A stretch of 64,000 nucleotides of DNA from Chondrosia reniformis (taxonomy: Eukaryota > Porifera > Demospongiae > Chondrillida > Chondrillidae). Numbering within the stretch: position 1 is the first letter of the stretch; the number at the start of each line of letters is the position of its first letter. The position numbers and the translations under genes are program-made. The notes beneath the pieces were generated by a model. That model did not search any database and was not told the DNA's origin. It saw nothing but the letters and a program-made list of their open reading frames with translations. Location: assembly GCA_947172415.1 (NCBI GenBank), contig OX359202.1:2950001-3014000 (forward strand). The letters run 5' to 3'. Shown here in pieces: positions 30,412-62,655 of this stretch.

Positions 30412-30501
30412 CTAAATGTACTGTAAGACTTTAGTAGAGGGAAGTCATGAGCTGTAAGACTATAAGACTAACAGAAAAGGGTATATTTGGAGGCACCGTA
30501 A
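30412..30501. repeat. 88-bp direct repeat bounding a satellite block (left)
   Basis: CTAAATGTACTGTAAGACTT through TTTGGAGGCACCGT recurs nearly unchanged at 30,933-31,022, exactly bracketing the satellite block. Confidence 0.88.
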
Positions 30502-30932
30502 CTTTAGACAAATGTAGAACCCCTCTGCTAAGCTACACTCGTACAACTTTAGACACACTTAGAACCCCTCTGCTAAGCTACACTCGAACAACTTTAAACA
30601 GACTTAGAATCCCTCTGCTAAGCTACACTCGAAAAACTTAAGACAGACTTAGAATGCCTCTGTCAAGTTACACTCGAACAACTCGATGGACACACTTAGA
30701 ACCCTCTGCTAAGTTACACACGAACACCTTTAGACACGCTTAGAACGCCTCTGCTAAGCTACACTCGAATAACTTTAGACAAATGTAGAACCCCTCTGCT
30801 AAGCTACACTCGAATAATTTTAGACAGACTTAGAACCCCTCTGCTAAGCTACACTCGTACAACTTTAGACAGACTTAGAACGCCTCTGCTAAGCTACACT
30901 CGAACAACTTTAGACAAATGTAGAACCCCTCT
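30502..30932. repeat. 45-bp satellite, block a
   Basis: About ten units around CTTTAGACAGACTTAGAAC and CTCTGCTAAGCTACACTCG. The same unit is at 33,240-35,700 and 44,636-45,130. Confidence 0.92.
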
Positions 30933-31022
30933 GCCTAAATGTACTGTAAGACTTTAGTAGAGGGAAGTCATGAGCCGTAAGACTATAGGACTAACAGAAA
31001 AGTCTGTATTTGGAGGCACCGT
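30933..31022. repeat. 88-bp direct repeat bounding a satellite block (right)
   Basis: Partner of 30,412-30,501. Confidence 0.88.
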
Positions 31023-33239: not shown

Positions 33240-35700
33240 ACATCAGACACAGGTAGAATGCCTCTGTACGCTACACTTGTACAACCTTAGACACACGTAG
33301 AACACTTCTGTCAAGCTACACTCATACAACTTAGATAGACTTAAAACTCCTCAGCAAAGTTAGCTACACTCATAACCTTTAGACACACTTAGAACTCCTC
33401 TGCTAAGCTACACTAGAACAACTTTAGACAGACTTAGAACGCCTCTGTCAGGTTACACCCGAACAACTTCCGACAGACTTAGAACACCTCTGTGAAGCTA
33501 TACACTCGAACAACTTTAGACAGACTTAGAATGCCTCTGCTAAGGTACACTCGAACAAATTTAGACAGACTTAGAACCCCTCTGCTAAGCTATACACTCG
33601 AACAACTTCAGACAGACTTAGAACGCCTCTGCTAAGGTACACTAGAACAACTTTAGACAGACTTAGAACGCCTCTGTCAAGTCACACTCGAACAACTTTA
33701 GACACACGTAGAACCCCTCTGCTAAGCTACACTCGTCCCACTTTAGACACGCTTAGAACGCCTCGGCTAAGCTAAACTCGAACAACTTTAGACACACTTA
33801 GAACCCCTCTGCTAAGCTATACACTCGAACAACTTCAGACAGACTTAGAACGCCTCTGCTAAGGTGCACTCGAACAACTTTAGACAGACTTAGAACGCCT
33901 CTGTCAAGTGACACTCAAACAACTTTAGACACACGGAGAACCCCTCCGCTAAGCTACACTCAAACAACTTTAGACAATGTAGAACCCCTTTGCTAAGCTA
34001 CACTCGAACTACTTTAGACAGACTTAGAACCCCAATGCTAAGCTACACTCAAACAACTTTAGACAATGTAGAACCCCTTTGCTAAGCTACACTCGAACTA
34101 CTTTAGACAGACTTAGAACCCCAATGCTAAGCTACACTCGAACAACTTTAGACACACGTAGAACCCCTCTGCTAAGCTATACGCTCGAACAACCGTTTAG
34201 ATAGACTTGAACGCCTCGGCTAAGCTACACTCGAACTACTTTAGACACAATTAGAACCCCTCTGCTAAGCTATACACTCGAACAACTTCAGAGAGACTTA
34301 GAACGCCTCTGCTAAGGTACACTCGAACAACTTTAGACAGACTTAGAACGCCTCTGTCAAGTCACACTCGAACAACTTTAGACACACGTAGAACCCCTCT
34401 GCTAAGCTACACTCGTCCCACTTTAGACACGCTTAGAACGCCTCGGCTAAGCTAAACGCGAACAACTTTAGACACACTTAGAACCCCTCTGCTAAGCTAT
34501 AAACTCAAACAACTTCAGACAGACTTAGAACGCCTCTGCTAAGGTGCACTCGAACAACTTTAAACAGACTTAGAACGCCTCTGTCAAGTGACACTCGAAC
34601 AACTTTAGACACACTTAGAACCCCTCCGCTAAGCTACACTCAAACAACTTTAGACAAATGTAGAACCCCTCTGCTAAGCTACACTCGAACTACTTTAGAC
34701 AGACTTAGAACCCCTCTGCTAAGTTACACTCGAACAACTTTAGACACACGTAGAACCCCTCTGCTAAGCTATACGCTCGAACAACCGTTTAGATAGACTT
34801 GAACGCCTCGGCTAAGGTACACTCGAACAACTTTAGACAGACTTAGAACGCCTCTGTCAAGTCACACTCGAACAACTTTAGACACACGTAGAACCCCTCT
34901 GCTAAGCTACACTCGTCCCACTTTAGACACGCTTAGAACGCCTCGGCTAAGCTAAACTCGAACAACTTTAGACACACTTAGAACCCCTCTGCTAAGCTAT
35001 ACACTCGAACAACTTCAGACAGACTTAGAACGCCTCTGCTAAGGTGCACTCGTACAACTTTAAACAGACTTAGAACGCCTCTGTCAAGTGACACTCAAAC
35101 AACTTTAGACACACGGAGAACCCCTCCGCTAAGCTACACTCAAACAACTTTAGACAATGTAGAACCCCTTTGCTAAGCTACACTCGAACTACTTTAGACA
35201 GACTTAGAACCCCAATGCTAAGCTACACTCAAACAACTTTAGACAATGTAGAACCCCTTTGCTAAGCTACACTCGAACTACTTTAGACAGACTTAGAACC
35301 CCAATGCTAAGCTACACTCGAACAACTTTAGACACACGTAGAACCCCTCTGCTAAGCTATACGCACGAACAACCGTTTAGATAGACTTGAACGCCTCGGC
35401 TAAGCTACACTCGAACTACTTTAGACACAATTGCTAAGCTATACACTCGAACAACTTCAGAGAGACTTAGCACGCCTCTGCTAAGGTACACTCGAACAAC
35501 TTTAGACAGACTTAGAACGCCTCTGTCAAGTCACACTCGAACAACTTTAGACAGACTTAGAACGCCTCTGCTAAGGTACACTCAAACAACTTTAGACACG
35601 CTTAGAACCCCACTGCTAAGCTACACTCGAACAACCTTAGACAGACTTAGAAGGCCTCTGTCAAGTTACACTCTAACAACTTTAGACAGACTTAGAACGT
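33240..35700. repeat. 45-bp satellite, block b, with higher-order repeats
   Basis: About 54 units. Marker variants (ACTCGTCCCA at 33,731, 34,411 and 34,911; CCCCAATGCTAAGC; TAGATAGACTTGAACGCC) recur in the same order at about 680 and 500 bp, so multi-unit blocks were duplicated. Confidence 0.9.
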
Positions 35701-35759: not shown

Positions 35760-35767
35760 GGCTGCAC
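35760..35767 (+). repeat. Target-site duplication, left (GGCTGCAC)
   Basis: Matches 43,294-43,301 exactly and abuts the inverted repeat. Confidence 0.85.
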
Positions 35768-35848
35768 TAGTCTGATGAAATCAGATCCAAAACTTACGCA
35801 ATACTTGCTCCAGTAAGGGTCTGACAACTTACGGCCGGTTTGCCGTTG
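35768..35848 (+). repeat. 81-bp terminal inverted repeat, left
   Basis: 79 of 81 positions match the complement of 43,213-43,293. Confidence 0.92.
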
Positions 35849-36788
35849 TAAAGGAGGTGTTACCCATACTGACCTCAATTAAAATTCCTCACACTCCTCT
35901 CGCGCTAATAAGAAGGTGTTAGTAAATAAATTTATACGTACGTAATAGGTAAATTCGTACGATGGCTCAGCAAGAGGAACGATCAGCAAAACTTGCAATC
36001 GATTCCGCCCTTTCGCAACTTGGTTGTTCAATTAATTTAAAAGAAAAACAGAGAGAAGCTTTACTGTTAGCCCTAGAGCAAAATGATGTCTTTGTGAGCC
36101 TTCCAACAGGCTATGGTAAAACAATAATTACAGCCTTGCTACCAATGGCATTTGATTATCTCCGAAATGAGCCTCAGAAGGGTTCAATTGTTGTATGTGT
36201 GTCTCCATTGATAGCCCTAATGATAGATCAGAAAGAACGATTAAATAAAATGGGAGTCAGTACTGCAGTGTTCTCAGGTACGCTACAGAAAAACCAACTG
36301 GATGGTAATTATCAGATAGTTCTGCTTAGCCCTGAAACACTGCTTAGAAATATTGAGGTCAGGGAAATGCTATTAAGTGAAAACTATAGAAAACATATTT
36401 CAGCTGTTGTGATTGATGAATGCCATTGCATATACAAATGGTAAGTTTGCTATAGAAGGTATTAAGTTAATTTCCTGATATATACATTATATGGTAAATT
36501 ACATTTAAACAGGGGTGATGATTTCCGGCCTAGTTATGATAAATTGGGTGAAGTAAGAAGTTTAGTTCCTCCTAAAACAGTTTTTGTTGCCATGACAGCA
36601 ACTGCTGACCCAAAGGCTGAAATGAGCATCAAAGCAATCCTCAAAATGGAAAACTGTAGACTGGTGAAAATTTCTCCCGACAAACCAAATATCTTTTATG
36701 GACTACAGAATGGAGTGTCAATAGCTCAATTAGCCATAAGACTTTCAAGTGGAATAATGGAAAAAAAGGAGTCTTATCCTAAAACGCT

Positions 36789-36922
36789 CGTGTTTTGTCG
36801 AAAGTAAGTTATCCATTAATTGTACATCCATGCATGCAGTATACAATGAAATGCTATAATTAACTGATATGCACACAAAGATTCTTATTATATATGGGAC
36901 TAAATGCTTATGTGATTACATA
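36789..36922 (+). repeat. Inverted duplication, source arm (exon 2 end and intron 2)
   Basis: 134 bp, complementary to 37,374-37,507 with about one mismatch. Confidence 0.9.
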
Positions 36923-37373
36923 GAATGCAGGTATACATACACATGTATAGGTGTGAAGATTGTGGTTTGCTGTATAGTTTCATTGAGGACAGGTTAGGAG
37001 ATAATTTCACAAATCCACCAGGTATCCCCAAAAACATTCCAGGAAGAAGGTAAATAAAATACTTAACTCATGACTATTAAGATTCACTCTGGTGTTGATA
37101 TAGGTTTGTTGAAATCTTAATGGCTCAAAACACCTTGAAGTTAAAGGAAGAAGTTATTTTTAATTTTTTAAAGCCTGAAACCTGCACCAGAATTATAATC
37201 TGTACAGAAGCCTTTGGCATGGGGATGGACTGTCCCAATATAAAAAAGATCATTCACTACCTGTCACCCAGTACTCCTGATAGTTACATACAACAAACTG
37301 GCAGAGGTGGTAGAGATGGGGGACAAGCAAGAGCCCTGTGCATATATGCACCGACAAAAATTAATACAAGTAA

Positions 37374-37507
37374 TATGTAATCACATAAGCATTTAGTCCC
37401 ATATATAATAAGAATCTTTGTGTGCATATCAGTTAATTATAGCATTTTATTGTATACTGCATGCATGGATGTACAATTAATGGATAACTTACTTTCGACA
37501 AAACACG
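37374..37507 (-). repeat. Inverted duplication, inserted arm
   Basis: Lies within the last exon of the helicase and supplies its premature stop. It includes a reversed splice donor, showing it was copied from genomic DNA rather than spliced RNA. Confidence 0.9.
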
Positions 37508-37675
37508 ATATTGGTTCAAGATATATGCAGGAGACATTTGTTATTTCATGTATACATGAAGTCTGCCACTTGTGACTTTAGTACATCAACACTGTGTAGA
37601 TGTTGTGATGTATGTGCTGTTGCTTGTAAATGTGGCAACTGTGTTAACTTTAATGATATTATGTAATTCAATTAA

Positions 37676-37962
37676 TATGATTTTGATTATTTTGCTAAGT
37701 GAATATTTGCATTGTTATATTCATTGAAATGGAAGTTATTTCACTGCACATGCATGCAAAAATACACTGTCAAGTGGCACACCTCAAACATTCCTGAGGA
37801 ACAAACCTACTCTAGAGGGAGGAGTTTACATCTACCAGCCTAACAAATTAACATATTTGGGGTGTTGATATTCATACCTAAACCTGAAGCGTGTTGACAC
37901 ACAATATATAAGGCAATGCTATATCACTGTAATACTATAGACTTCTGGAGCTGCTAAGTATT
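37676..37962. other. Intergenic spacer between the two transposon genes
   Basis: 287 bp. It probably holds the second gene's promoter. TATATAAGGC at about 37,906-37,915, roughly 50 bp before the ATG, is a TATA candidate. Confidence 0.5.
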
Positions 37963-39740
37963 ATGCATAGAGGTGAGGAACCTGGTTCTTCAAGTGCATC
38001 TAAAGAATGCAGTAGCTATACATGTGCCTTCTGTGAGAAGGAAGTAGCCTCAAAGTATCAACGCATCAAAATTTGTGGAAAATCTAAAGAGTCAATTGTA
38101 TCAAAAGTAGAGAAATTTGCTGAAATGGAGTTGCTTGGGATTGACTTTGATGTAGAGAGGATACTGGAAAACCTGCCAGAGAGAGATTGCTATCTTTGTA
38201 ACCCATGCCACAAACAGCTGCTGAGATGGGACACCCTTGTATCTCAATTGGAAACAGTAAGGCTCAGTTTACAAGAAAATGTGAGTAGGTTTCTAAATAA
38301 GCCAATGTCTGAGACAGTAAGACCTTCAGCAGACCCACCAACAGCTGGCTTTACTCCAAAACGACGAAAATTGGCTAAAGGGGTCTCACCCAGAGTCACA
38401 GTAAGTAACTACATAACCAAGCTAGTCTTAATAGGCATGGATATATAACTTAATTTATCAGTAACACTTTAATTATTGAACATACAGGTTTCCATAGGAT
38501 ATACCAGGCCTTTACATAAACAATTGCAAAGCTCCACCCAGCGACACGTGGCTAAACACATGGCTTTTAATAAACCAATGCTGGCTTTGAAGGAATTATT
38601 AGAGAATGCTGATACATCTCTTGATGTTGTCAAAACCATCACCAAATTTATGAAATCTAAAGAAATTGAATCAATTTCTTACGAAACAAGTGCTATTAGC
38701 CTCAAACCTACAAATACCCTATCAGAAGTCAGTCAATTTTCTTGGGAAGCACATTGGAAAAGTTTAAAGAATTGTGCACCACTACTTACTACATTTCTAA
38801 GTGAGATGATACCAACAAAGAAAAGAGAAAATGCAATAGCTATCACATGTCTGATTGCATCTATGATCTGCAAAACCCACAATCGTAAGCTTTCAGCCAT
38901 TCAGGAAATAATGGCATTATTGCTATATGCTGGACATGGCACTACAAAGGTATATCAATGTATATACATTGATTAGAAATCTATATATAGGAGTATTACA
39001 GTAAATCAATTTATATACCATGTACATGCAGTCAATTGAGAGACTCCAACCACTAATGATAACTGTCCACCCAAACACTCTAAACAGAAAGCTACATAAC
39101 CTAGGATTACAATTTGATAGAGATGTTATAGAATGGAGAGACCTAATGCAGGCTACATTATCAGGCTCCTCTTGCGACAAAGTAAGTTTAAAAATACAGA
39201 AAACCAATTACATATATATGCATAATATATGTATGATCTTATGAAGGAATTGGGCATCTGTAGAAAAGCAAGACAAAATGCCCTGAGTACAACAGTTGAC
39301 AGCAGCATTGCTGAAGCAATGGATACCAGTGAAACAGTAGATTCACTCAGAGATGAGGCAACTACTTTAACACACCCTGCACATAGTCAGGAATTCGAAG
39401 ACATAGAAATGCCCAGTTTTGTGGTAAACTGTTTTATCATTACAGTCTGCGTCTGCATGAGTTTTAAGTTACAATATATACATATTCAGGTACCTTCACC
39501 ACCTCATAGTCCAAGACAACATGATACCACATTAGTAACAAGCTCTCCTAAAACACCTCAGAACAGATATGGCAGGTCAATATCACTGGATTTATCCCCA
39601 CTGCCAGTTGCAACTGCATCAGTATGTCTCATGCAGACTGCATATGATATTAAATTAATTCTATATACTCATGCATGTAGGTCATAACAACTCCTGGACC
39701 AATTTTACGGCCTCATACAACAGATCCTGAGATATCATTG

Positions 39741-41294
39741 TCCTTCATAGATTGGTGTCACCATTTATTCTGTATTCGTATTTTCCACTGTCTAATAAAA
39801 CATTTTTGGTGATTTCGCACCTCTCACTTACGGCCGCTTAACTTCTCCTTTAAGCCTGTAATTGTGACGCTCTTGTAGCCAAAATATTAAGAAAGAAAAG
39901 CGCTTCAATTCTATATAATTTGTTTAACGATACGATGTTTCTACCGTCAAATAGAATAAACTAAAAAAGAGTGTTAGTTAGCGACTTTTACTGAAATTCC
40001 CGGAAGTGTGGACATGTTCCACTAGCGGTGGTCTGGTTTATATGGAGCTGTATCATCCAGTGTAGTGTAGTTTATGCGATCTTTGACAGCAAAGGCATGA
40101 AAATAATGGAGAGATAGAGTTTGTCGATTTATTGTTTGGTGTCTCCTTTTCACATTTTTGTCGAAGTTATCACCAACTATTTTAAATCCTTTCCATGTCA
40201 TATCTGATTCAGTGTCTTGGTCCTTCCAAAAATACATATTTGCATAAGAGAATTTCATACATCATGTATATTACCATGAAAATGGCACTCACTAGAGATT
40301 CATGTGATTGTTCATTTGAAGATCTATATCTAACAATTGTATGTATACTCCTTTTAAATTCCCTTTAGTTCATGAATTATAATCGAAAACATATTTTCGT
40401 AGCTTTTTCGGGTACCTATAGTACTTCATATCTCGGTTAAACAAGGGAATATTCCAGGAGTATACATACAACTTTTAGGCTGTTACTTACTGAAGAGATT
40501 GATGTCAAAAAATAGTTAGATTTACAATCCTCCACTGTCTAATAATCCGTTTATTTTCCATTTGTCTCTTCTCCTTCGAAAAATGGTATTGTCACGTGAT
40601 TATCAGCCACAATTAGTAGTATAGCTTAGCCATCATACAATGACGTTTTATGACGTTGCATATGCACCCAAATATTTGGTAACGCGTTAAAAACCATTAG
40701 AAGTAAAGCTTCTCGGTAGCGAGACAGTTTCCTTGATCAAAGTTTTTGTTGTCGTAGGAGGTAAGTGGAAACAGTAAGCATATTGCATGTCTACTAATAT
40801 CTATGTAAATATCAATGGCGAAAATGTATGAGCAATTAACGAAGCATAATCAAAAGAAAAAGAATAGAACGTTTTGGTCAAGTAGGCCTTAATTCCTCAG
40901 CTAATAATAATTGCTGAGGAATTAAGGCCTACATAACCGTAACGTTCTATTCTTCTTTTGAATATTAACGTAGTATAATGATGAATTAAGGCCTACGTGA
41001 CCGAAACGTTCTATTCTTCTTTTTTAATATTAACATAGTATAATCAAAAGGAAAATAAAACGTTTCGGTCACGTAGGCCTTTATGGGCCTTCCTCCGTCG
41101 TTGGCCTTCCTACGCTATTCTATAATTTAACATCTATAACGACTAGTGATGAATGGTGACGTTTCAGTGCTGGGTGCTCCGCTTCACGCGCAGGTCACAT
41201 GCTAAAGACACTTCCGCCTGGAATGTGACACTTCTGTAGGCGATAATAAGACGATTTACAAAAATCGGAAATTCGTGGACAGGTTCCACATGCG
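39741..41294 (+). mobile_element. Non-autonomous F1 element inside the DUF6589 gene, partly inverted
   Basis: 39,741-40,027 is the complement of the left part of the copy at 10,503-11,785 (10,503-10,790). About 40,321-41,294 matches the middle and right part in the direct sense and ends ..CACATGCG. Between them lies inverted host coding sequence. The original ends have AC outside on both sides (complement at 40,028-40,029; 41,295-41,296). Excision with one AC left joins the codons for PDH and TELDVF in frame. Confidence 0.82.
40028..40320 (-). pseudogene. Inverted exon of the DUF6589 gene
   Basis: On the minus strand this reads WKGFKIVGDNFDKNV, then QTLSLHYFHAFAVKDRIN and ends APYKPDH, the conserved segment otherwise missing from the plus-strand gene. 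Upstream, SHESLVSAIFM followed by GTAATA looks like the end of the preceding exon. The orientation is opposite to all other exons of the gene. Confidence 0.8.
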
Positions 41295-43212
41295 ACACTG
41301 AACTAGATGTTTTCCTGCCCACTACAGCTGATTTTATTTCTATAAGAACTTTCTTTATCAACTACGTATGCAGGTCGGTTCTCCATGCAATAAAAATGTT
41401 TAATAAACAAATAATCAGCATGCAAACAACTGTTTACTCAGATTTCTAGCAAACAACATTCCCCACTACCACTCACAAGCTAAAGACTTACAATGGCACA
41501 TTCCCCAATCATATTCAGATGAAATGGCAAGGAAATCATCAGTGGTAGGTTGAGGATGTGAATTTTATATGCAGCACAAAGTGTAATCACCTATAGGTAT
41601 TTCTACACCTAATAGAGACCCCTTGGAATCATATTAAAGAATGAAAATATAGTTTCTGAAATGATTACCATTCTTGAAACCCTCCACAAATATGTGCCAA
41701 CAGTTGAGGAAGAAATCGAGATTAGAGTGGATGAAAATACAACCATTCAGGAAAAACAGCAGATGATCCATCCAATTTATTTGGGTGGTGATCAACTAAC
41801 TGTGGCAAGAGCTAGGGCCGCCAAGACTGCTCGAGCTTCTGAAATTACACCTACACAAAGACTAGAAGGCTTAGTTCCTACATTGGAAGATTGGCACACT
41901 AGGCTATGCCTTCTAACGGTATAAACTACATATAGCTTAAAAAACTCATAACATAACAGTTAAAATTGTATATTTATATAGGTTATCTGGAAGCGATACT
42001 ACACCAATAGTCATTCAACGGTTGGCACACTACGTCATCTGAAGAATGTCCTAAACCGATCATCAGTTGGTGGTGAACCAAAGAAAGATGTTAATGCTTG
42101 TGAGGACTTTGCTGAAGTCACACTTACATCATACATCATAGCAGCAGCCTCATTCATTACTCACAAGTCTACTGAGGACCTACTGAGCTGTGAACAATCA
42201 ATTACAAATTTACCGCATTTACCAGAGCTTGCACAACAAATTGTGTCAAAATTTGTGCTTATCGATCACTGTTTAACTGGGTATGACACCAGTGACAAGA
42301 CTCTGACACACACAAAGGAGCTAATGACAATGTTACTACTGTGGTACCACTACAGGGATACAACAAGGGAAGGTGATGGCAATCGGTTACTCCCTTTAAT
42401 AAAAGTGCTCCTGATCATTTTTAAACTGAACAATAGAAGAAACTATGCTAAGGAGATCATCATTATGCTCCATCACTTCTATTATTTGGCATCTGAGCGA
42501 ATGCAACATCAACTGCTATACTCTAGGTAATCATCATGCATGATTCATAATACAAATTAGAGTATATTGTGTACATTGATTTAATGATGGATCCTCAGCT
42601 ATTTTCCACTATACTAATGCAGATTTGTCAACATGCATGGGTTAAAAGGAAAAAACATTGCTTGCGACGTACTAATGGAACATTTGAATAGGTTTGTCTT
42701 AGTGCCTTGTTTTCACTAGATTACATGAAGTGCATAGTTTGCTATTCCTATAAGGTTTACTCTATATTTACCTAAATATACAGAGATTTGAAGAAATACC
42801 TATCAGAGGCTGGTTCTAACTTGACAGAAAACACCATCTTGCGGACTGGGCGTGTTCTGGATATTCTCAAGTCGATTTGCAGCAGTTTTGATGACCACTA
42901 TAGCCCTGGAACACACAAGTCACCTGACTTGTCTCCAGACATTCGAAAAGCTTCACAGCTGCTAAGTCAAGCAGATCTCTTCAGTGATAGTGGAAGGACA
43001 AACCATCCATTGAAGCCCCAGCCAACTTTTAAGAACAACAACAGAAAGGATTTTGCTGCGTGGATTTCTTCTATAACTTCAGTGGACTGCCATTTTTAGT
43101 CTTGTACTTTACACACTTGTTAATTATTAATAAGGACAGCAATGTTTACATTCCAGTTACCAAATATGGCAGGTGTTTGACCACAGAATGGTCGGTGTTA
43201 ATTGCGACCGTG

Positions 43213-43293
43213 CAACAGCAAACCGGCCGTAAGTTGTCAGACCCTTACTGGAGCAAGTATTGCGTAAGTTTTGGGTCTGATTTCATCAGACTA
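43213..43293 (-). repeat. 81-bp terminal inverted repeat, right
   Basis: Partner of 35,768-35,848. The 8-bp GGCTGCAC follows at 43,294-43,301. Confidence 0.92.
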
Positions 43294-43301
43294 GGCTGCA
43301 C

Positions 43302-44635: not shown

Positions 44636-45130
44636 ACACTCGAACAACTTTAGACAAATGTAGAACCCCTCAGCTAAGCTACACTCGAACGACTTTAGAC
44701 AGACTTAGAGCGCCTCTGTCATGTTACACTCGAACAACTTCAGACAGACTTAGAACGCCTCAGCTAACCTACACTCGAACAACTTTAGACACACTTAGAA
44801 CCCCAATGCTAAGCTACACTCGAACTACTTTAGACACACGTAGAACCCCTAAGCTATACACTCGAACAACCGTTTAGATAGACAAATGTAGAACCCCTCT
44901 GCTAAGCGACACTCGAACAACTTTAGACAAATGTAGAACCCCTCTGCTAAGCTACACTCGAACAACTATAGACAGACTTAGAACGACTCTGTCAAGTTAC
45001 ACTAGAACAACTTTAGACAGACATAGAACGCCTCTGCTAAGCTACACTCGAACAGCTTTAGACAGACTTAGAACGCCTCTGTCAAGTTAGACTCGAACAA
45101 CTTCAGACAGACTTAGAACGCCTCTGTCAT
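44636..45130. repeat. 45-bp satellite, block c
   Basis: About 11 units like those at 33,240-35,700, with variants AATGTAGAACCCC and GACTTAGAACGCC. Confidence 0.92.
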
Positions 45131-45590: not shown

Positions 45591-48500
45591 AACTAGAAAC
45601 TAGTAGATACAACTAGTATATATATAAAATTAGTACATTTAACTAGTATATAAAACTGGTATATACATACAACTAGTACATACAATTAGGCAATAGTACA
45701 TACAACTAGTACATACAATTAGTATATACAAATAGTACCTACAACTACTACATATAACTAGTACATACAACAATTACACACTACTTATACATTCAACTAA
45801 TACAAATAACTACTACATTCGACTAGTACATACAAATAGTATTGAGTACATACAACTAGTTTATACAACTAGTACATGCAACAAGTATCTAGTACATACA
45901 ACTAGAACCTACCTAGTATATAGTATAACTAGTACAAGAATCAACAACTGGTACATACACATAGTACATACAACTAGTACTTACAACTAGTACATACAAA
46001 TAGAAACTAGTAATTACTATTAGTTCATAGAACGAGTACATAATACTATATAAGCAAAGAACTTAAATATACACCAAGTACATAGCTAATATTAACAACT
46101 ACTATATACATACAACTATTACTTGCAACTAGAACATACCAAATAGTACCCACAACTAGTACATACAATTAGTATATACAACTAGTCCATTCAACTAGTC
46201 CATACAGCTATGACAAACTGCTAGGACATATAACTAGTACCTACAACTACTACATATAACTAGTAAATACTCATGCCTTGTAATATTAATATTAGAACGT
46301 ACAACTTGTGTATTCAACTAGTACATAACTACTACACACAACTAGTAAAAAACAACTAGGGCTTATAAATAGTAAATATACCTACTACATATAACTAGTA
46401 CATACACTTTTACCTAATAATTATAAATAGTACATACAACTAGTATCTACTACATACAACTAGTACCTTCTTAGCACCTAGTATAACTAGTATGAGAACC
46501 TACCACTTGTACATACAACTAGTACATACAACTAGAACATACAACCAGTACAAAGCTAGTACATACAACTAGTATATACATACAACTAGTAAATATAACT
46601 AGTACTAGTCCATACAACTAGTACATAGAACTAGGACTTGCAATTAGTACATATAACTAGTGCACATATCTCACGCATATACCTAATACATAAAAATATA
46701 ACTAGTACATATAAATAGTACATAAACATAGTACACACAAGTAGTTCATACAATTACATATACAACTAGTACATACAACTAGTGCATACAACTAGACTTA
46801 ATACAACTATTACCTAGCACAAACAACTAGTACATGCAAATAGGACATACGAATCGTACTTTCAACAAATAAATACAACTAGTACCTACAACTAGTACAT
46901 ATAACTGGAACTAGTACATAAAAAAACTAGTACATACAACTACTACTAACAACTAGTAACGAGTACATACAACTAGTACATTGAATTACTACACACAACT
47001 TGTACATAAAACTAGTAAATAATACAATCAGCTAGGACATAAAACTGGTACATACAACTAGGACATACAACTGGTACATACAACTAGTGCATACAATTAG
47101 TACACACAAATAGTACATACACATAGTAAATATAACTAGTACATACTACTACTATATAAAACTAATACATATAACTGGTACATATAACTAGTACATATAA
47201 ACAGTACATACAACTAGTTCGTAAAACTAGTTCATACAACTAGTACATGCACCAAGTATCTAGTACATACAAATAGAACCTACCTAGTATATAGTATAAC
47301 TAGTTCAAGAATTAACAACTGGTACATACATATAGTACATAAACTAGTACTTTCAACTATTTCATACAACTATAAACTAGTGCATACAACTATTTCATAG
47401 AATGAGTACATAATACTAGAACGTACAACTTGTATATACAACTAGCGCTTAGCTATTATTTATAACTAGTATACATACAACTATATAGTAAATACAACTG
47501 GTACATAACTAGTACATACAACTAGTATATACGAATAGAACAAACAATTACTACATACAGCTATTACATACAACTTTTACATACAGCTAGTATCTACAAC
47601 TACTAAATATAACTAGGACTAGTACATAAAACAAGTGAATACAACTAGTCCATACAATTAGTACATAAAACTAGTACATGCAACTAGTACATACAACTAG
47701 TACATTCAACTAGTCCATGCAACTACGACAAACAGCTAGGATATATAACTAGTACATACAACTACTTCATATAACTAGTAAATACACATACCTTGTAATT
47801 ATAAATAGTACATACAACTAGTACATAAAACTAGAAACTAGAATATACAACCAGCTCCCAGAATGAGTACATAATACTAGAATGTACAACTTGTATATTA
47901 AACTAGTACATAACTACTACACACAACTAGGACATATAAATAGTACATACACCTACTACATATAACTAGTACATACAGTTTTTCCAAATAATTATAAATA
48001 GTACATACAACTAGGACATACAACTAGTACATACAACTAGAATCTACTACATACATCTAGTACCTTCCTAGCACCTAGTATAACTAGTTCAAGAACCTAC
48101 CACTTGTACATACAACTAGTACATACAACTAGAAGATACAACCAGTACAAAGCTAGTACATACAACTAGTAAATACATACAACTAGTAAATACATACAAC
48201 TAGTACATACAAATAGTACCTACAACTAGTACTTGCAACTAGTACATATAACAAGTACCTACAACTAGTAAATATAACTAGTAGTAGTCCATACAACTAG
48301 GACATACAACTAGAACTTGCAACTAGTAAATATAACTAGTACACAAATCTACCACATATAACCAATACATGAAAATATAACTAGTACAGTTAAATAGTAT
48401 AATAAACTAGAAACTAGAACATACAACTAATATATACATAAAACTTGTACGTTTAACTAGTTCATACAACTATTATATACAAACAACTAGTTCATACAAC

Positions 48501-48929
48501 TAGTATTTAAAATTAGCTCGTACAATTAGTTCACACAACTATTAACTAGTACATATAACCAGTACATGCAACTAGTACATGCAACTAGTACATACAACTA
48601 GTTCATAAAACTAGTACATCCAACTAGTTCATACAACTAGTAATTAGTACATATAACTAGTACATTCAACTAGTACATACAACTAGGCCAAATAACTAGG
48701 ATATATAACTAGTACATACACCAAATAAATATAACTAATACAAACAAATATACCTAGTAATTATAAATGGTACATACAACTATTACAGAGAACGGGAACA
48801 TAAAACTAGTACATACAACTACTTCATAAAACTAGTATATAGCTATTACAAAGAACTAGTGCATACATCTTGTACAAACAACTGGTTCATATCTAGTACA
48901 TACAACTAGTACATAACACCTTATTTAAC

Positions 48930-48957
48930 TTTTGGCGCCAAAATAGTGTATATAAGG
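48930..48957 (+). promoter_or_regulatory. E2F-like palindrome plus TATA box, Penelope copy 2
   Basis: TTTTGGCGCCAAAA at 48,930-48,943 and TATATAAGG at 48,949-48,957. Confidence 0.5.
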
Positions 48958-49012
48958 CCCATAGAGAGCCAAGGATTCACAGAAGATCAAGATAAAGAAA
49001 AAGACAAAGACT

Positions 49013-49069
49013 CCCAGGATCACTGATGAAGGGTGGAATTCCCAGAAACGGCTGTCTGACCCAGTGGAG
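49013..49069 (+). ncRNA. Hammerhead-ribozyme-like motif, Penelope copy 2
   Basis: CTGATGA 49,023-49,029; GAAAC 49,045-49,049; GTC 49,054-49,056. Core identical to copy 1. Confidence 0.5.
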
Positions 49070-52000
49070 AAGATGAAAGAAAGGAAAAGAAGGAAGAAAA
49101 GGAAGAAAAGACTCCTGTATCTTCATCTAAAGCTTTCTTTAGGTTTAGTTCCCCTATAGGCTCTTTTTACAGAATAGGCATATAGCAATTAGGAAAATGG
49201 TATCTTAAATTTTTCAAACAATCAGTACATAAAACTAGTTCAAACAAACAAACAAGTAGTATATAGAACGAGTTCATTCCTAGTTCCTAGTATAACTTGT
49301 ACCAGAACCTCCAAGTAGTTCAAAAAATAGTACATACAACTAGTACATAACACTACTAAAAACCTAGTACATACAACTAGTATAAATATACAACTAGTAC
49401 ACAGAACGTGTGCATACAATTAGCACATACAACTTATCCTTTCAACTAGTACATATTCCAAGTTCAAACATCTAGTACATACAACTAGTACATACAGTTA
49501 GGCAATAGTACATACAACTAGTACATACAAATAGTTCATACAACTAGTACCTATAACTAGTACATACAACAATTACACACTACTTATACATTCAACTAGT
49601 ACGAATAACTACTCCATTTGAATAGAACATACAATTAGTATTGAGAACATACAACTAGTACATACTACTAGTACATAAAACTAGTACATATAAACAGTAC
49701 ACACAAATAGTTCGTAAAACTAGTTCATATAACTAGTACATGCAACAAGTATCTAGTACATACAACCAGAACCTACCTAGTACATAGTATAAGTAGTACA
49801 AGAATCAACAACTGGTACATACACATAGCACATACAACGAGTACTACAACTAGTACGAAAAACTAGAAACTAGTAACTTGTAGATACCTAGTACATACAA
49901 TTAGTACATAGAACTAGTTCAAACAATTAGAACATGCAACTACTATATAAACCTAGTACTTACAACTGGTACTTAAAACTAGTTCATATAACTAATACAT
50001 AACTAGTACATACAATTAGTACTTAGACCTAGTTCAAACAATTAGAACATACAACTATTACCTACACCTAGTATATACAATTTGCACTTACAATTAATAC
50101 ATACAAATGGTACATAAAACTAGTACATATAATTGGAACTAGTATATACATGAAACTAGTACATACAACTACTGCTAACAACTAGTAACGAGTACATACA
50201 ACTAGTACCTTGACTACAACTAGTAAATACAATATAACTAGTATTAGTACATACAACAAGTACATGCAATTAGTACATACAACCAGCACATACAGCTAGT
50301 ACATCCAAGTAGTACATATACCTACTACATAAACATATAAATAGTACACACAACTAGGACAATTACACACAACTGGTACATACAACTAGTACATACAACT
50401 AGTACATACAACTAGTACATACAATTAATCACTAGTACATACAACTAATACATACAACTAGTACATACAACTACTACATTTGATTGGTACATACAAATAG
50501 TATCGAGTACACACAACTAGTATAGACAGCTAGTACATTCAACTAGTATATACAACCACTACATAAACAGGAAACTAGTTCTAACAACTAGTACATACAA
50601 CTAAAGCCTACTTAGTTCCTAATATAACTAGTTCTAGAACCTACAACTAGTACATACAGCTAGTGCATACACGTAGTATAGGCAACTTGTACATACAATT
50701 GTTACATACAACTACCACATATAACCAGTACATACACATATAACTGTAATATAAAAATAAAATATACACCTGGTACAACAAGTACATATAAAACGTACAT
50801 CCAACTAGTACATACAACTAGTACACACAACTAGAAACTAATACATACACCTAGTTCATAGAACGAGTGCATAATACTAGAACATACAACTTGTATATAC
50901 AACTAGTACATAGCAACTGCATACAACTAGTATGTACAACGGGTACATAACTAGTACTTGTACATAAGTAGTACATACAACTTGTTCATAGTACCAGTTC
51001 ATAAAACTAGCATATACAACTACTACATAAACAACAAACTAGTATATACATACAACTAGTACATAGCTAGTACTTACAATTAGTGTATACATACAACTAG
51101 TACATACAACTAGTACAAACAATTAGTACAGACAACTACTACATCCAACTACCACATACAACCAGAATCTACATCTAGTAAATATAACTAGTACTAGTAC
51201 ATAGAACTAGTATATACAACTAGTACGTTAAAGTTGTACTAACAACTAGTACACACAATTAATTTCTTATTTAGTCCCTACTACAGCTATTCCTAGAACC
51301 TTCAATTAGTACATACAGCTAGCACATACAACCAGTACAGGAAACTAGTACATACAACTTGTACATACAACTACTACATGTAAACAGTACATATACATAT
51401 AACTAGTTTATAAAAATAGTACATACATTCAGTTAATACATAAACATATAACTAGTATATATGAAAAGTACATACACCCAGTACATACAACTAGAAACTA
51501 GTATACAACCAGTATACTTATACATTCTACTAGTCCAAATGACTACTACATTCGACTAGTACATACAAATAGTATTGAGTACATACAACTAATACATACA
51601 ACTAGTGCATACAATTAGTACACGCAAATAGTACATACAGCTAGTAAACATATATAACTAGTACACACTACTAGTACATATAACTAGTACATATAAACAG
51701 TCCATACAAAACTAGTACATGCAACAAGTGTCTAGTACATACAAATAGAACCTATCTAGTACATAGTATAACTAGTACAAGAATCAACAACTGGTACATA
51801 CACATAGTACATACAACTAGTACTTACAACTAGTACATACAACTAGAAACTAGTAAATACTACTAGTTCATTGAACGAGTACATAAGACTATATAGAACA
51901 ACAACTTAAATATACATCTAGTACATAGCAAATATTAACAACTGGTATATACATACAACTATTACCTAAAACTGGTACATAACTAGTGCATACAATTAGT

Positions 52001-54067
52001 ACACCAAAATATTACACACAGCTAGTGAATATAATTAGTACACACTACTAGTACTTATAACTGGTACATATATATAACTAGTACATGCAACAAGTATCTA
52101 GTTCATACAACTAGAACCTCCCTAGTACATAGTATAAGTAGTACAAGAAGCAACAACTGGTACATACACATAGTACATACAACTAGTATAAACATACAAC
52201 TAGTAAACAGAACGTGTACATACAATTAGAACATACAAATAGTACTTTCAAATAGTACATATAACAAGTTCACACACCTACTACATATAACGAATACATA
52301 AACATATAACTAGTATATATGAATAGAACATAAACATGGTACATACAAATAGAAACTAGTACATACAACTATTTCATAAAACTGGTATATAGCTAGTACA
52401 AACAACTAGTGCATACATCTTGTACATACAACTGGTTCATATCTAGTACATACAACTAATACATACAATTTGTACATACAACTACCACATACAACTTGTA
52501 CATACAACTAGCACCTACACTCTAGTAAATATAAATAGCATTAGTACATACAACAAGAACATACAATTAGTACATACAACAAGAACATACAATTAGTACA
52601 TACAACCAGCACATACAGCTAGTACATACAAGTAGTACCTATACCTAGTACATACAAGTAATACATATACCTAGTATATAAACATATAAATAGTCCATAA
52701 AAATAGTACATACAACTAGTACAATTACACACTACTGGTACATCCAACTAGTACATACAACTAGTACATACAATTTGTACATAAAACCAGTTCAAACAAA
52801 CAAACAAGTAGTATATAAAATGCGTTCCTTCCTAGTTCCTGGTATAACTTGTACTAGAACCTAAAACTAGTTCAAAAAACTAGTAAATTCCACTAGTATA
52901 TACAATTATTCACTAGTACATACAACTATTACATACAACTAGTCCATATAGATACTACATTTGATTTGTACATACAAAGAGGATCGAGTACAAACAACTA
53001 GTATATACATTCAACTAGTACATACAACCACTACATAAACAGGAAACTAGTACATACAACTAGTACATAGCTACTAAATACAACTAGTATATACATACAA
53101 CTAGTGCATACAACAAATACATACAATTAGTACATACAACCACTACATACAACTACTACATACAACCAGTACCTACAACTAGTAAATATAACTAGTACTA
53201 GTACATAGAACTAGTACATACAACTAATACGTTAAAGTAGTACTAACAACTAGTACATACAACTAAAGCCTACTTAGTTCCTAATATAATTAGTACTAGA
53301 GCCTACAACTAGTACATACAGCTAGCGCATACACGTAGTACAGGCAACTTGTACATACAACTCTTACATACAACTACTACATATAACCAGTACATACACA
53401 TATAACTAGTATATAAAAATAGTACATACACCTATTACATACAATAAGTACATACAACAAGTACATACAAAACGTACATCCAACTAGTACATACAACTGG
53501 TACATACAACTAATACACACAACTAGAAACTAGTACATACACCAACTTCATAGAATGAGTTCATAATTCTAGAACATACAACTTGTATATACAACTAGTA
53601 CATAGCAACTACATACAACTAGTATATACGTACAACTAGTTAGTACAACTGGTACATAACTAGTACATACAACTTGTACATAAGTAGTACATACAACTTG
53701 TACATAGTACAAGTACATAAAACTAGCATATACATCTACTACATAAACAACAAACTAGTATATACATACAACTAGTACATAGCTAGTACTTACAATTAGT
53801 ATATATATAGAACTAGGGCATACAACTTGTACAAACAATTAGTACATACAACTACTACATCCAACTACTACATACAACCAGAACCTACATCTAGTAAATA
53901 TAACTAGAACTAGTACATACAACTAGTATGTTAAAGTAGTACTAAGAACTAGTACATACAACTAATTCCTACTCAGTACCTACTATAACTAGTACTAAAA
54001 CCTACAATTAGTACATACAGCTAGCACACACAACAAGTACAGGAAACTAGTACATACAACTGGTACA

Positions 54068-54437
54068 TACAACTACACATATAGTTCGAGTTTAAACACT
54101 CGTGGGGCTGCCGCCCCCCGAATTTACTCCAACTACTTGGTCGCATCGTTGGGCTTTGATATACTATTCTTAATCCTAACGATTGAGGACGCTTAAGTGT
54201 CCGGAAAATTATAAATAGCGACAGAAAAGCTTCGTTAACTAAAGCTTCCTGAACGCCGCCATTTGCAAAAACGATGTATTGACGTATAAATTAAGTGTTA
54301 CAATAGTTGCGTATGAACTCGTATTATATATATATTTATATTTATATATACATATATATATATATATATCCGTAACATGAAGCCATACATAAATTGCGTT
54401 ATGAAAACAATAGAGGGAGCTGCCACAGGCAGCCCCT
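54068..54437. repeat. Dispersed repeat R, copy 4, with GC-rich ends
   Basis: Opens TCGAGTTTAAACACTCG then GGGGCTGCCGCC; ends in an AGCTGCC-ACA-GGCAGC hairpin followed by CCCTAAAAACTAG. Minisatellite flanks it. The 5' TC and the 3' hairpin before CTAG recall non-autonomous Helitron ends, but CTAG also occurs in the flanking minisatellite. Confidence 0.7.
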
Positions 54438-57400
54438 AAAAACTAGGACATATAACTAGTACATACACTTACTACATATAACGAGTACATACACATATAC
54501 CTAGAATATATAAATAGTCAATACAACTAGTACATACAGCTGGTGCATACAACTAGTTCATATAACTAGTACACAAATATATAACTAGTACATCCAAATA
54601 GTAAATACAACTAGAACATACAACTAGTGCGTATAACTAGTACATGCAAATAGTACATGCAACTAGTATCTGGTACAGACAACTAGAACATACAACTAGT
54701 ACAAAGTTAGTACATACAACTAGTATTAACATACAACTAGTACATAGAACGTGTACATACAATTAGCACATACAACTAGTACTTTCAACTAGTACATATA
54801 ACAAGTTCACACACCTACTACATATAACGAATACATAAACATATAACTAGTATATAAGAATAGAACATAAGCATGGTACATACAACTAGAAACTAGTACA
54901 TACAACTAGTGTATATATAAAACTAGTACATACAACTGGTAAATACATACAACTAGTACACACATACAACTAGCACATACCAGTCGTACATAAAATTCAT
55001 AGGTACAACTAGTTTATAAAATTAGTAAGTAGTAAATATAATTAGTATGTGCAACTAGTACATAAAACTAGCACATACAACTAGTGCATGCAACTAGTAC
55101 AAAGAACTGGGACATATTAGTAGTACATACACCTATTACATATAACTAGTACATACACGTATACCTAGTAAATGTAAATAGTACATACAACTAGTACATA
55201 CAGCTTGCGTATACAACTAGTACATTTAACTAGTACACACACATACAAATAGTACATACAAAAAGTAAATACAACTGGGACATACAACTAGTGCGTAGAA
55301 CTAGTACATACAACTAGTATCTAGTACATACAACTAATACAAACAACTAGGACCAAAAACTAGTAAGTTCTAGTACATACAACTAGTACATAAAACTACT
55401 ACTTTCAACTAGAACATATACCTAGTACACACACCTATTACATATAACTAATACATACAAATATAATTAGTTCAAATATATAGTGCATCGACATAGTACA
55501 TACAGCTAGTACAAAAAACTAGTAAATACAACTAGAAACTAGTACATACAACTAGTACATACAACTAGTACATACACCTAGTTCATAAAACTATTATAGA
55601 GCTAGTACAAAGAACTAGTGTATACATCTTGTACATACAACTGGTTCATATCTACTACATACAACTAGTGCATTAAACTAGTACAAAAATTAGTACATAC
55701 AACCAGCTAATACAGCTGGTACATACAAGTAGTACATATACCTAATGTATAGACATTTATAAAGTACATATAAACAGTACGTATAACTATTATATATAAC
55801 TAGTACAAACAAATAGTACATACACCCAGTACATACAAATGTAACGTGTACATATAAGTAGCACATACAACTAGTACATACAACAATTACACAAAACTGG
55901 TACATATAACTAGTACATATAACTAGTACATACAACTAGTGTCTAGTATATACAACTAGTACCTCCCTAGTACCTAGTATAATTAGGACTAGAACCTACA
56001 ACTAGTATATACTACTAGTACATGCAACTAGTACATGAAAATAGTACATACAACTAGTACAGAAAACTAGTGCACACAAACAAACAAGTAGTTCATAGAA
56101 CTAGTTCATTCCTAGTACCTAGTATAACTTTTACTAGCACCTAAAACTAGTTCAAACATCTAGTACACACAACTAGTACATACAATAAGGCTATAGTACA
56201 TAGAACTAGTACATACGACTAGTACATACAAATAGCACATAAAACTAGTACATATAACTAGTACATGCAAATAGGACATACGAATCTTAGTTGCAACTAA
56301 TAAATACAACTAGTACCTACAACTAGTACATATAACTGGAACTAGTACATAAAACTAGTACATACAACTACTACAAACAACTAATAATGAATACATACAA
56401 CTTGTACATTTAACTAGTACGCTCAACATGTACATGCAACTAGTACATGCAACTTGTACATACAATTAGCAAATAAAATTAGTTCATATAACTAGTACAT
56501 ACAACTAGTAACGAAAACATAAAACTAGTACCTTGAGCTACTACACACAACTTGTACATAAAACTAATAAATAGTACAATCAGCTAGGACATACACCTGG
56601 TACATACAGCTAGGACATACAACTGGTATATTTAACTAGGTCATATAACTACTTTATCTAACAAGCACATACAAGTAGTTTCTAATACATAGAACTATAT
56701 AGTACCTCTAGTACCTAGATTAACTAGTACTAGAACCTACAACTAGTACATACAACTAGTGCATACAATTAGTACACACAAATAGTACATACAGCTAGTA
56801 AATATAACTAGTACATACCACTTGTACATAAAACTAGTATATATAACTCGTACATATAACTAGTACATATAAACAGTACATGCAACTAGTACATGCAACA
56901 AGTATCTAGTACATACAAATAGAACCTACCTAGTACATCGTATAACTAGTACAAGAATCAACAACTGGTACCTACACATAGTACATACAACTAGTCGATA
57001 CAACTAGTACATACAACTAGAAACTAGTAGTTACTACTAGTTCATAGAACATACAACTTGAATATACATCTAGTACATAGCTAATATTAACAACTAGTAT
57101 ATACATACAACTATTAAGTACAACTGGTACATTACTAGTACATACAAATAGTACATACAACTAGTACATACCAAATAGTACATACAACTAGTACATACAT
57201 CTACTACATATAACTAGTAAATTCACATATACCTAGTAATTATAAATAGTACATACAACTATAACATACAGCTATTGTATACAATTAGTACATACAACTA
57301 GTACACAAACATATAACCAGTGAATACGCATATAACTGGCACTTATAAAGAGTACATACACATAGTACATACAAATAGTACATACAACTAGTACATACAA

Positions 57401-60192
57401 CTAGCTCGAGTACATAATACTAGAACGTACAACTTGTATATACAACTAGTGGATAGCTATTATTTATAACTAGTGTATACATACAACTAGTACATACAAC
57501 TGGTACATTCAACTAGTCCATACAACTAGGACAAACAACTAGGACATATAACTAGTACATACATCTACTACATATAACTAGTAAATACACATATACATAG
57601 TAATTATGAATAGTACATACAACTATTACATACAGCTATTGTATACAATTAGTACATACAACTAAAACATACAACTGTAAACTAGTACAGATAACTAGTT
57701 CATAGAACGAGTACATAATATCAGAAAGTACAACTTGTATATACAACTAGTGGATAGCTTTTATTTATAACTAGTATATACATACAACTAGTCTATACAA
57801 CTGGTACATAACTAGTACATACAACTAGTACACAAACATATAACCCCAGTGAAGACGCATATAACTGGCACTTATAAATAGTACATACACATAGTACATA
57901 CAAATAGTACATTCAACTAGTACATACAACTAGCTCATAGAACGAGTACATAATACTAGAACGTACAACTTGTATATACAACTAGTGGATAGCTATTATT
58001 TATAACTAGTATATACATACAACTAGTACATACAACTTGTACATAACTAGTACATACAACTAGTACATACAAATAGAACAAACAATTAGTACATACAACT
58101 ATTACATACAACTTTTACATACAGCTAGTTCATTACGACTATATTCTAAATATAACTAGGACTAGTAAATAAAACTAGTGAATACCACTAGTACATACAA
58201 TTAGAATATACAACTAGTACATGCAACTAGTAAATACAACTAGTACATACCAAATAGTACCCACAACTAGTACATATAATTAGTACATACAACTAGTACA
58301 TACAACTAGGACATGCCAAATAGTACCCACAACTAGTGAAAAAAACTAGTACATACAATTAGTACATACAACTGGTACATTCAACTAGTACATACAACTA
58401 TATGGTACATACCAAATAGTCCGCACACTAGTACATACAATTAGTACAAAGAACTAGTACATTCAACTAGTCCATACAACTACGACAAACAGCTAGGACA
58501 TATAACTAGTACATACACCTATTACATATAACTAGTAAATACACATACCTTGTAATTAAATATAGTACATACAACTAGTACATACAACTAGTACAGTAAA
58601 CTAGTACACACAAGTAGTAAATACAACTAGAAAATAGTATATAGAACTAGCTCACAGAATGAGTACATAATACTAGAACATACAACTTGTATATTCAACT
58701 AGTACATAACTACTACACACAACTAGGAAAAACAACTAGGACATATAAATAGTACATACACCTACTACATATAACTAGTACATACACTTTTACCTAATAA
58801 TTATAAATAGTACATAAAACTAGTACATACACCTATTATCTACTACATACAACTAGTACCTTCTTAGAACCTAGTATAACTAGGACAAGAACCTACCCCT
58901 TGTACATACAACTAGTACATACAACTAGAACATACAACCAGTACGTAGCTAGTACATACAAATAGTATATACATACAACTAGTATCTAGTGCATACAACT
59001 AGAACATACAACTAGTACATAGCTAGTACATACAACTAGTACACTGAACATGTACACACCATTAGCACATGCAACTATTACATACAACTAATACATACCT
59101 AATAATTGTAAATAGTACATACAACTAGCATATACAACTAGTACATACAACTAGTATCTAGTACACACAACTAGTACCTTCCTAGCACCTAGTTTAACTA
59201 GTACAAATACCTACCACTTGTACATACAACTAGTACATACACCTAGAACCTACAACCCGTACATAGTTAGTACATACAACTAGTATATACATACAACTAG
59301 CACATACAACTAGTACATACAACTAGTACTTGCAACTAGTACATATAACTAGTTCACACATCTACCACATAAAACCAATACATGAAAATATAACTAGTAC
59401 ATATAAATAGTACATAAACATAGTACATACTAGTAGTTCATACAACTACTAGTACATAGAACGAGTACATAAAACTAGGACCTATAACTAGTTCACACCT
59501 ACTACATATTATTAGTACATAAATATATAACTAGTACATATGAATAGTGCATCCATATAGTATATATAACTAGTACATAAAACTAGTACATGCAACTAGA
59601 AACTTGTACATACAACTGGTATATATATAAAACTAGTACATTTATTTAGTTCATACAACTATTATATACAAACAACTAGTTCATACAACTAGTATATACA
59701 ATTAGGTCGTACAACTAGTTCACACAACTATTAACTAGTACATATTGCAACTAGTACATACAACTAGTACATACGACTAGTTTATACAACTAGTAACTAG
59801 TACATATAACTAGTACGTTCAACTATGACAAACAACTAGTTTTTACAATTAGTTTGCACAATTAGTTCATACAACTAGTTACTACTACATACAACTAATA
59901 CATACAACTAGTACCTAAAACTAGTAAATTAAGCTAGTTCTAGTACATACCACTAGTACATTCAACTAGTACTTTCAACTAGTACATTTAACTAGTACAA
60001 ACAATTACTACATATAACTAATACATAAAAATATAACTAGTTAAATAAATATTGCATCCACATAGAACATACAACTAGTACATAAAACTAGTAAAAACAA
60101 CTAGAAACTAATACATACAACTAGTATATATATAAAATTAGTACATTTAACTAGTACATACAACTGGTATATACATACAACAAGTACATAAC

Positions 60193-60886: not shown

Positions 60887-62655
60887 AAGAAGATGAAAGA
60901 AGGGAAAAGAAGGAAGAAAAGACTCCTGTATCTTCGTCTAAAGCTCTCTTTAGGTTTAGTTCCCCTATAGGCTCTTTTACAGACTAGGCATATAGCATGT
61001 AGGAAAATGGTATCTTAGATTTTTCATACAACTAGTACATAAAATTAATTGGTACAACTAATTCATACAACTAGTAACTAGTACAAATAACTAGTACATG
61101 GTACTACTACATACAAGTAGTACATATATCTAGTACATACAATTAATACATACAACTAGTACATTTAAAGAGTACATACAACTATTACATACAACAATTA
61201 CACAAAATTGTTACATACAACTAGAACATATAACTAGTTCATATAACTAGTATATACAAATAGTGTCCAGTATATACAACTAGTAACTCCCTAGTACCTA
61301 GTATTATTTTGACTAGAACCTACAACTAATATATACTACTAGTACATGCAACTAGTACATGCAACTAGTACATACAAATAGTATTGAGTAAATATATACA
61401 ACTAGTACATACAACTAGTGCATACAATTAGTACATAGAACTAGTACATATAAAGAGTACACACAACTAGTTCATAAAACTAGTTCATACAACTAGTACA
61501 TGAAACAAGTATCTAGTATATACAACTAGTACAAGAATCAACAACTGGTAAAAACACATAGTACATACAACTGGTACTTACAACTAGTTCATATGACTAG
61601 TACATAACTAGTACATACAATTAGTACATAGAACTAGTTTAAACAATTAGACCCTACAACTACTACATACACGTAGTATATACAATTTGTATATACAATT
61701 TTGTACATACAAATAGTACATAAAACTAGACCATACAACTATTAACTAGTACATACAACTAGTACATTCAAATAGGACATACGAATCGTACTAGCAACTA
61801 ATAAATACAACTAGTACATATAACTGGAATTAGTACATAAAACTAGTACATACAACTACTACTAACAACTAGGAACGAGTACATACAACTAGTACATTGA
61901 ACTAGCACGCACAACATGTACATGCAACTTGTACATACAATTAGTAGATAAAATTAGTACATATAACTAGTACATACAAATAGTAACGAAAACATACAAC
62001 CAGTACATTGAACTACTACACACAACTTGTACATAAAACTAGTAAATAGTACAATCAGCTAGGACATACAACTGGTACATTCAATTGGTATATACAACTA
62101 GGTCATAAAACTACTTTATATACAGAGTACATACAAGTAGTTTCTAGTACATATAACTATATAGTACCTACCGAGTACCTAGTTTAAATAGTACTAGAAC
62201 CTACAACTAGTACATACAACAGGTGCATACAATTAGTACACACAAAGAGTACGTACTGCTAGTAAATAAAACTAGTACATATAACTGGTACATATAACTA
62301 GTAAATATAAACAGTACATACAACTAGTTCATAAAACTAGTTAATAACAAGTATCTAGTACATACAAATAGAACCTACCAAGTCCATAGTATAAGTAGTA
62401 CAAGAATCAACAACTGGTACATACACATAGTACATACAACTAGTCCATACAACTAGTACAAAGAACTAGAAACTAGTACATACACCAAGTTCATAGAACG
62501 AGTACATTATACTATAGAAAACATACAACTTGAATATACATCTAGTACATAGCTAATATTAAAAACTAGTATATACATACAACTATTAAGTACAACCGGT
62601 ACATAACTAGAACATACAAATAGTACATACAACTAGTACATACCAAATAGTACAC

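Follow-up and report, generated by a model that had tools for sequence, protein, structure and literature searches.

What kind of mobile element carries a RecQ-like helicase gene next to a gene of the Pfam family DUF6589, and which of the two proteins would move it? The question is raised by a 64,000-nucleotide stretch of the genome of the sponge Chondrosia reniformis (GenBank assembly GCA_947172415.1, contig OX359202.1), hereafter the window, which is C14:2950001-3014000 of the assembly searched in this work (117.38 Mb, 15 contigs). The element occupies positions 35768-43293 of the window (7,526 base pairs, bp), and the RecQ-like helicase gene and the DUF6589 gene lie inside it. An original prediction, made from the letters alone, had described it as a complete two-gene transposon, possibly of a new superfamily. 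We consider it likely that the element is instead a dead member of a family of cut-and-paste DNA transposons, most probably AcademH or a group close to it, with DUF6589 as the probable transposase and the RecQ-like helicase as its regular partner.

The element ends in terminal inverted repeats of 81 bp, in which 79 of 81 positions pair between both ends, and the 8 bp that flank it are identical on the two sides. Both features had been predicted, and both were confirmed at these positions:

35760-35767, no strand: left target site duplication GGCTGCAC
35768-35848, plus strand: 5′ terminal inverted repeat, 81 bp, starting TAGTCTGATGAAATCAGA
43213-43293, minus strand: 3′ terminal inverted repeat, 81 bp
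43294-43301, no strand: right target site duplication GGCTGCAC, exact over 8 bp

Searches of the assembly scored the best candidates alone, one exon at a time. The 81-bp end has at least 42 matches in the genome (best 40 of 101 candidates scored), many of them as inward-facing pairs. Our sample of the family with such ends, family A, comprises 27 loci, 18 with two facing ends and nine, left unscored, with one; the scored set is the 18 plus the window copy. Scoring of the duplications at further copies of the ends, as the original prediction had suggested, revealed exact duplications at 15 of the 19 two-ended copies (9 bp in nine, 8 bp in six, and 10 bp in none); no target duplication was found at the other four, L036, L040, L046, and L048. 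Given the number of matches and these duplications, the end repeats of the window are far above the chance expectation. Family A has been mobile.

The 18 two-ended copies besides the window are short derivatives of 70-1,709 bp. According to the prediction, copies of the repeats that lacked the genes and the duplications would speak against it. Four of the 18 are of this kind; the other 14 have no complete genes and yet are flanked by 8- or 9-bp duplications. L027 and L028 share their flanks and may represent one insertion that was copied. Part of the last DUF6589 exon is found in 13 of the 18, most of these being fold-backs of the element's 3′ end with a piece of the exon on each arm:

42782-43293, plus strand: 3′ end, the source of many short derivatives

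The best matches to the whole of this 512-bp segment are 97-98% identical (best 40 of 105 candidates scored). The exon pieces in the short copies, together with this identity, tie DUF6589 sequence to the family A ends and suggest that the family was active not long ago. The fold-back derivatives, and an inverted duplication in the RecQ-like gene, are what one would expect if the repair machinery had switched templates.

The RecQ-like gene is on the plus strand at 35962-37666, with five exons that encode a protein of 434 amino acids:

35962-36440, plus strand: RecQ-like exon 1, DEAD domain with PTGYGKT and DECH
36513-36803, plus strand: RecQ-like exon 2, with MTATA; gt-ag introns
36924-37049, plus strand: RecQ-like exon 3
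37104-37376, plus strand: RecQ-like exon 4, Helicase_C domain with TEAFGMGMDCP and QQTGRGGRDG
37531-37666, plus strand: RecQ-like exon 5 with the stop, a short Cys-rich end
36788-36922 (plus strand) and 37374-37508: arms of the 135-bp inverted duplication, 99% identical, nearly all RecQ intron 2

The protein matches the Pfam domains DEAD and Helicase_C, both above their cut-offs, and the Pfam search gave no match in it to the RecQ zinc domain. Its top NCBIfam model is the RecQ family (184 bits). The best PDB matches include WRN, BLM, and 1oyw, which is listed as an ATP-dependent DNA helicase and which we take to be E. coli RecQ. Of the 135 bp in the inverted duplication, 119 come from intron 2, which is 120 bases long, and 16 from exon sequence.

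The plus-strand exons of the DUF6589 gene fall within 37963-43099:

37963-38400, plus strand: exon 1, CxxC-type N-terminus, with a zf-AD match far under the cut-off
38488-38949, plus strand: exon 2
39032-39181, plus strand: exon 3
39247-39423, plus strand: exon 4, a model made by eye
39490-39621, plus strand: exon 5, a model
39681-39729, plus strand: final coding part ahead of the inversion breakpoint, a model
41297-41374, plus strand: coding sequence directly past repeat X (see below), start of the Pfam domain
41442-41544, plus strand: exon, a model made by eye
41616-41918, plus strand: exon with GGDQLT; candidate second catalytic Asp at codon 41790-41792
41982-42526, plus strand: exon between the candidate second Asp and Glu, possibly an insertion domain
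42623-42691, plus strand: exon ending CDVLMEHLNR; candidate catalytic Glu at codon 42678-42680
42784-43099, plus strand: last exon with the stop

When joined with X spacers, the pieces from the window score 187 bits against the DUF6589 model (PF20231, cut-off 27 bits) over model positions 6-401 of 410, nearly its whole length, and they matched no other Pfam family. Two single exons score 71 and 38 bits. Pfam gives the family no function.

The window copy is not complete, and its DUF6589 gene is broken. Two further segments are found within it:

39730-40325, minus strand: 596-bp inverted segment, of which 39730-40027 is part of repeat X and 40028-40325 contains DUF6589-gene coding sequence on the minus strand
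40326-41294, plus strand: rest of repeat X

Minus-strand DUF6589 coding, absent from the original prediction, was located at 40028-40210. A genome search with 39740-41620 gave at least 164 matches (best 40 of 276 candidates scored), and the 969-bp part of repeat X has at least 34 other near-full-length matches, 81-99% identical. In other copies of repeat X the 39740-40027 part, reversed, adjoins the 40326-41294 part; the structure of the repeat, 1,262 bp, comes from copy L062 on C11. Comparison with L062 places the inversion in the window at 39730-40325 and shows 6 bp of overlap at its breakpoint. The simplest history, to judge from these sequences, would be that repeat X entered the DUF6589 gene and that 596 bp were then inverted. 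Repeat X (window 39730-41294; L062) has imperfect inverted ends, CGC..GTGGAACATGTCCAC, and is flanked by TA on both sides in L062 and by AC on both sides in the window.

The inversion and the inserted repeat dispose of the word "complete" in the original prediction. Its statement that two spliced genes on the same strand fill the interval is right in that the RecQ-like gene and the DUF6589-gene exons lie on the plus strand inside the element, but the DUF6589 gene is disrupted, with one part on the minus strand and repeat X inserted. No intact copy was found in the assembly among the best candidates scored, exon by exon. The next best match to the searched DUF6589 exon lies in C1, shares 67% identity, and is interrupted by three stops, and the 5′ part found in C2 (L035) has stops inside its RecQ exons.

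Is the association of the two genes peculiar to the window? Seven DUF6589 loci were found independently of RecQ, by a search with one DUF6589 exon and a search with the Pfam family: the window, C1:4940k, C5:4637k, C5:4643k, C3:5389k, C2:3775k, and C1:4714k. RecQ sequence adjoins six of the seven. RecQ exon-4 matches stand beside five; at C5:4643k, RecQ pieces were detected by tblastn about 3 kb away, plus one weak piece nearer. With 16 exon-4 matches genome-wide, chance alone would place one within 5 kb of about 0.01 of the seven loci. The two genes are in tandem in the window and face each other at the other five paired loci. DUF6589 genes regularly found without RecQ were to count against the prediction; such a gene was seen at one of the seven loci only (C1:4940k). 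No long end repeats were found at the C3, C2, and C1:4714k loci (6-6.5 kb read each). Long inverted repeats around the C5:4637k gene pair were considered as its ends and rejected as a high-copy repeat.

In the same neighbourhood of C5, and at L041:2840-3269, a high-copy repeat has at least 39 other matches at 94-95% identity (best 40 of 487 candidates scored), and some of the matches to the C5-neighbourhood repeat form pairs spaced by 3,501 bp, close to frames that by eye resemble a retroelement. Just upstream of a C5 DUF6589 fragment there is a RING-finger frame (L042:1485-2120), whose best PDB matches are BRCA1 (4e-6) and RAG1 (1.4e-5), both reaching about 40 residues past the RING; further RING proteins in the PDB matched as well. 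In molluscs, N-RAG-TP transposons carry a gene for a protein resembling the N-terminus of RAG1, which offers a lead for this frame.

A second family of ends, family B, emerged from a search with RecQ exon 1. Among its 53 genome matches, seven are 46-49% identical to the window and free of stops, and L065, one of the seven, is bounded by 97-bp repeats of 100% identity, with a 9-bp duplication flanking them. The 97-bp repeats have at least 42 matches (best 40 of 125 candidates scored). Duplications of 9 bp are present in all 12 copies examined, and none is of 10 bp; the 12 are L065, L066, and ten further end pairs, with five more listed pairs and L064 outside the count. L066 (C4:5004216-5007822) carries the 5′ part of a related RecQ on one strand and matches to DUF6589-gene exons 1, 2, and 3 on the other (E values 0.07, 2e-7, and 2e-10). 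The ends of both families start with TAGTCT and carry CAGACC and then GGGTCTG; when the letters of each family's inner repeat were shuffled 200,000 times, this pair of motifs, chosen after looking, came up 4 and 5 times. For the ends of L075 and L085 the bases read are too few to judge. On the evidence of RecQ beside six of seven DUF6589 loci and of parts of both genes in a family B copy, DUF6589 is probably the transposase and RecQ the protein that regularly accompanies it, in line with the roles that had been predicted for them.

The history of selection bears on the same point. For DUF6589, comparison of the window with the C1 copy gives a nonsynonymous rate (dN) of 0.21 and a synonymous rate (dS) of 1.86, a ratio of 0.11 over 262 codons with dS near saturation; therefore, the protein was probably kept by selection while the two lineages diverged. 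Comparisons of young copies give ratios of 0.56 (RecQ, window vs. C2), 0.83 (family B, L065 vs. L064), and 0.74 (DUF6589 exon 1, window vs. C2), values that indicate little constraint, as would be expected for dead copies. When RecQ exon 1 is compared between the window and L065, dS is saturated and hence no ratio is given. The candidate catalytic residues are the Asp of VGDNFD (codon 40169-40171, minus strand), the Asp of GGDQLT, and the Glu of MEHLNR. GGDQLT is retained in the C1 copy and reads VGDQQT at C5:4637k and GGNQLT at C1:4714k. EHLN is retained in the C3, C2, and C5:4643k copies, there is a stop at that site in the C1:4940k copy, and the candidate Glu was not found at C5:4637k and C1:4714k. 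No DUF6589 relatives were found in the viral contigs searched. The single match in prokaryote genomes, L063, was rejected as spurious; it lies opposite a long frame that by eye resembles an amidohydrolase.

How might such an element move? The terminal repeats would be bound by the Cys-rich N-terminus of DUF6589, and both the cleavage of the ends and their joining to target DNA, with a stagger of 8-9 bp, would fall to a catalytic core of Asp...Asp...Glu in a putative RNase H-like fold. The RecQ-like helicase would probably unwind the ends or intermediates of gap repair.

To what known group would the element belong? AcademH was reportedly introduced by Kojima in 2020 as a lineage of Academ DNA transposons, from animals according to the title. 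Kolobok duplications are TTAA. Published descriptions report a RecQ helicase in Academ (PMC3627910), duplications of 9-10 bp for AcademH and of 3-4 bp, with a nuclease, for AcademX (PMC10045372), AcademH among the helicase-bearing transposons of fungi (PMC10799480), and KolobokH, from fungi only, with a RecQ helicase encoded downstream of the transposase domain (PMC9587614). Our element resembles AcademH as described in these texts in its animal host, its helicase gene, and its terminal inverted repeats (81 bp and 97 bp in the two families). The likeness of the duplications, of about 9 bp, is less exact, those of family A being of 8 or 9 bp as against 9 or 10 bp in AcademH. If that filing is right, AcademX belongs to the same superfamily; it differs in its 3-4-bp duplications, as against 8-9 bp here, and no XPG match was found in the element. 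XPG_I (PF00867) has four matches at three loci of the genome, none in the element and none with a link to an AcademX element. KolobokH shares the RecQ helicase encoded with a transposase, and differs in that the duplications here are of 8-9 bp, not TTAA, and in that the DUF6589 pieces match no other Pfam family. Because RecQ in Academ and the AcademH duplications are already described in the texts cited, the new superfamily that had been suggested is not needed, and AcademH-like is the best filing, the comparison being one of published descriptions alone.

Several observations weigh against our reading of the element. Six of the 15 family A duplications are of 8 bp and none is of 10 bp, compared with the 9-10 bp in the published AcademH description, and the likeness to AcademH is one of description. 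The NCBIfam RecQ score lies below that model's cut-off of 219.8 bits, and C2:3775k (26 bits) and C1:4714k (24.7 bits) are below the Pfam cut-off for DUF6589. C1:4940k has no adjoining RecQ gene in the 18 kb read, and the RecQ start there lies inside a separate copy of 598 bp. One end of the L064 element is without GGGTCTG, as is, for the full motif, the left end in L044. The stretch with the candidate first Asp, just outside the Pfam domain, is unmatched in the C1 copy or at other loci, and a sequence search found no PDB match to DUF6589, whose RNase H fold we infer. DUF6589 might instead represent an unrecognised class of DDE (Asp-Asp-Glu) transposase, a doubtful but not negligible proposal in which it would form its own superfamily apart from Academ, regularly coupled to RecQ, with TAGTCT-CAGACC-GGGTCTG ends and 8-9-bp duplications. 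The transposase would be unrelated to that of Academ, and RecQ would have been recruited independently, as in KolobokH. Since RecQ is found in both Academ and KolobokH, repeated recruitment is plausible, and the duplications of 8-9 rather than 9-10 bp and the absence of the name DUF6589 from the literature searched also favour it. However, an animal transposon with a helicase, inverted repeats, and target duplications of about 9 bp is what the cited texts already call AcademH, and we regard a separate, unnamed superfamily as unlikely.

The lack of a PDB match, which leaves a DDE fold not demonstrable by sequence, would also agree with DUF6589 being an accessory only, the element being moved by an enzyme encoded elsewhere. 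This is quite improbable, as all eight stop-to-stop frames of at least 100 codons inside the element belong to the RecQ or the DUF6589 gene, and DUF6589 is under strong constraint and recurs with RecQ. It is harder still to believe that a transposon of another kind captured both genes by chance as passengers; at 70-1,709 bp, the other 18 two-ended copies of family A are all too short for both, but the two genes are found again in family B, whose repeats differ, and stand together at six of seven DUF6589 loci. A dead AcademH-like element with DUF6589 as its probable transposase thus remains our preferred reading.

What is new is the link of DUF6589, RecQ, end repeats, and target duplications in two families of one genome, together with the role proposed for DUF6589. 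A limited search of the open-access literature found no report of a link between DUF6589, RecQ, and a transposon; the name DUF6589 was absent from it, and its accession string occurred there only in an unrelated optics text. The finding offers a testable function for a Pfam family without one and, for two repeat families within a single animal, connects a RecQ helicase with transposition, such that a requirement for RecQ in transposition becomes directly testable. Should DUF6589 prove to be the transposase of AcademH, further genes of this Pfam family could be re-annotated, either as transposons or as transposon-derived genes.

Outside the element, 45-bp tandem arrays lie on either side (33254-35698, 30500-30934, and 44636-45126), and the element starts about 70 bp past the end of one of them. 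A very long, diverged 13-bp tandem array, with the unit AACTAGTACATAC and about 1,139 copies in its longest stretch, occupies 45598-60175 of the window; the array, which has a strong GC and AT skew, is also found at 14861-15956, 61025-62654, and 63133-63893.

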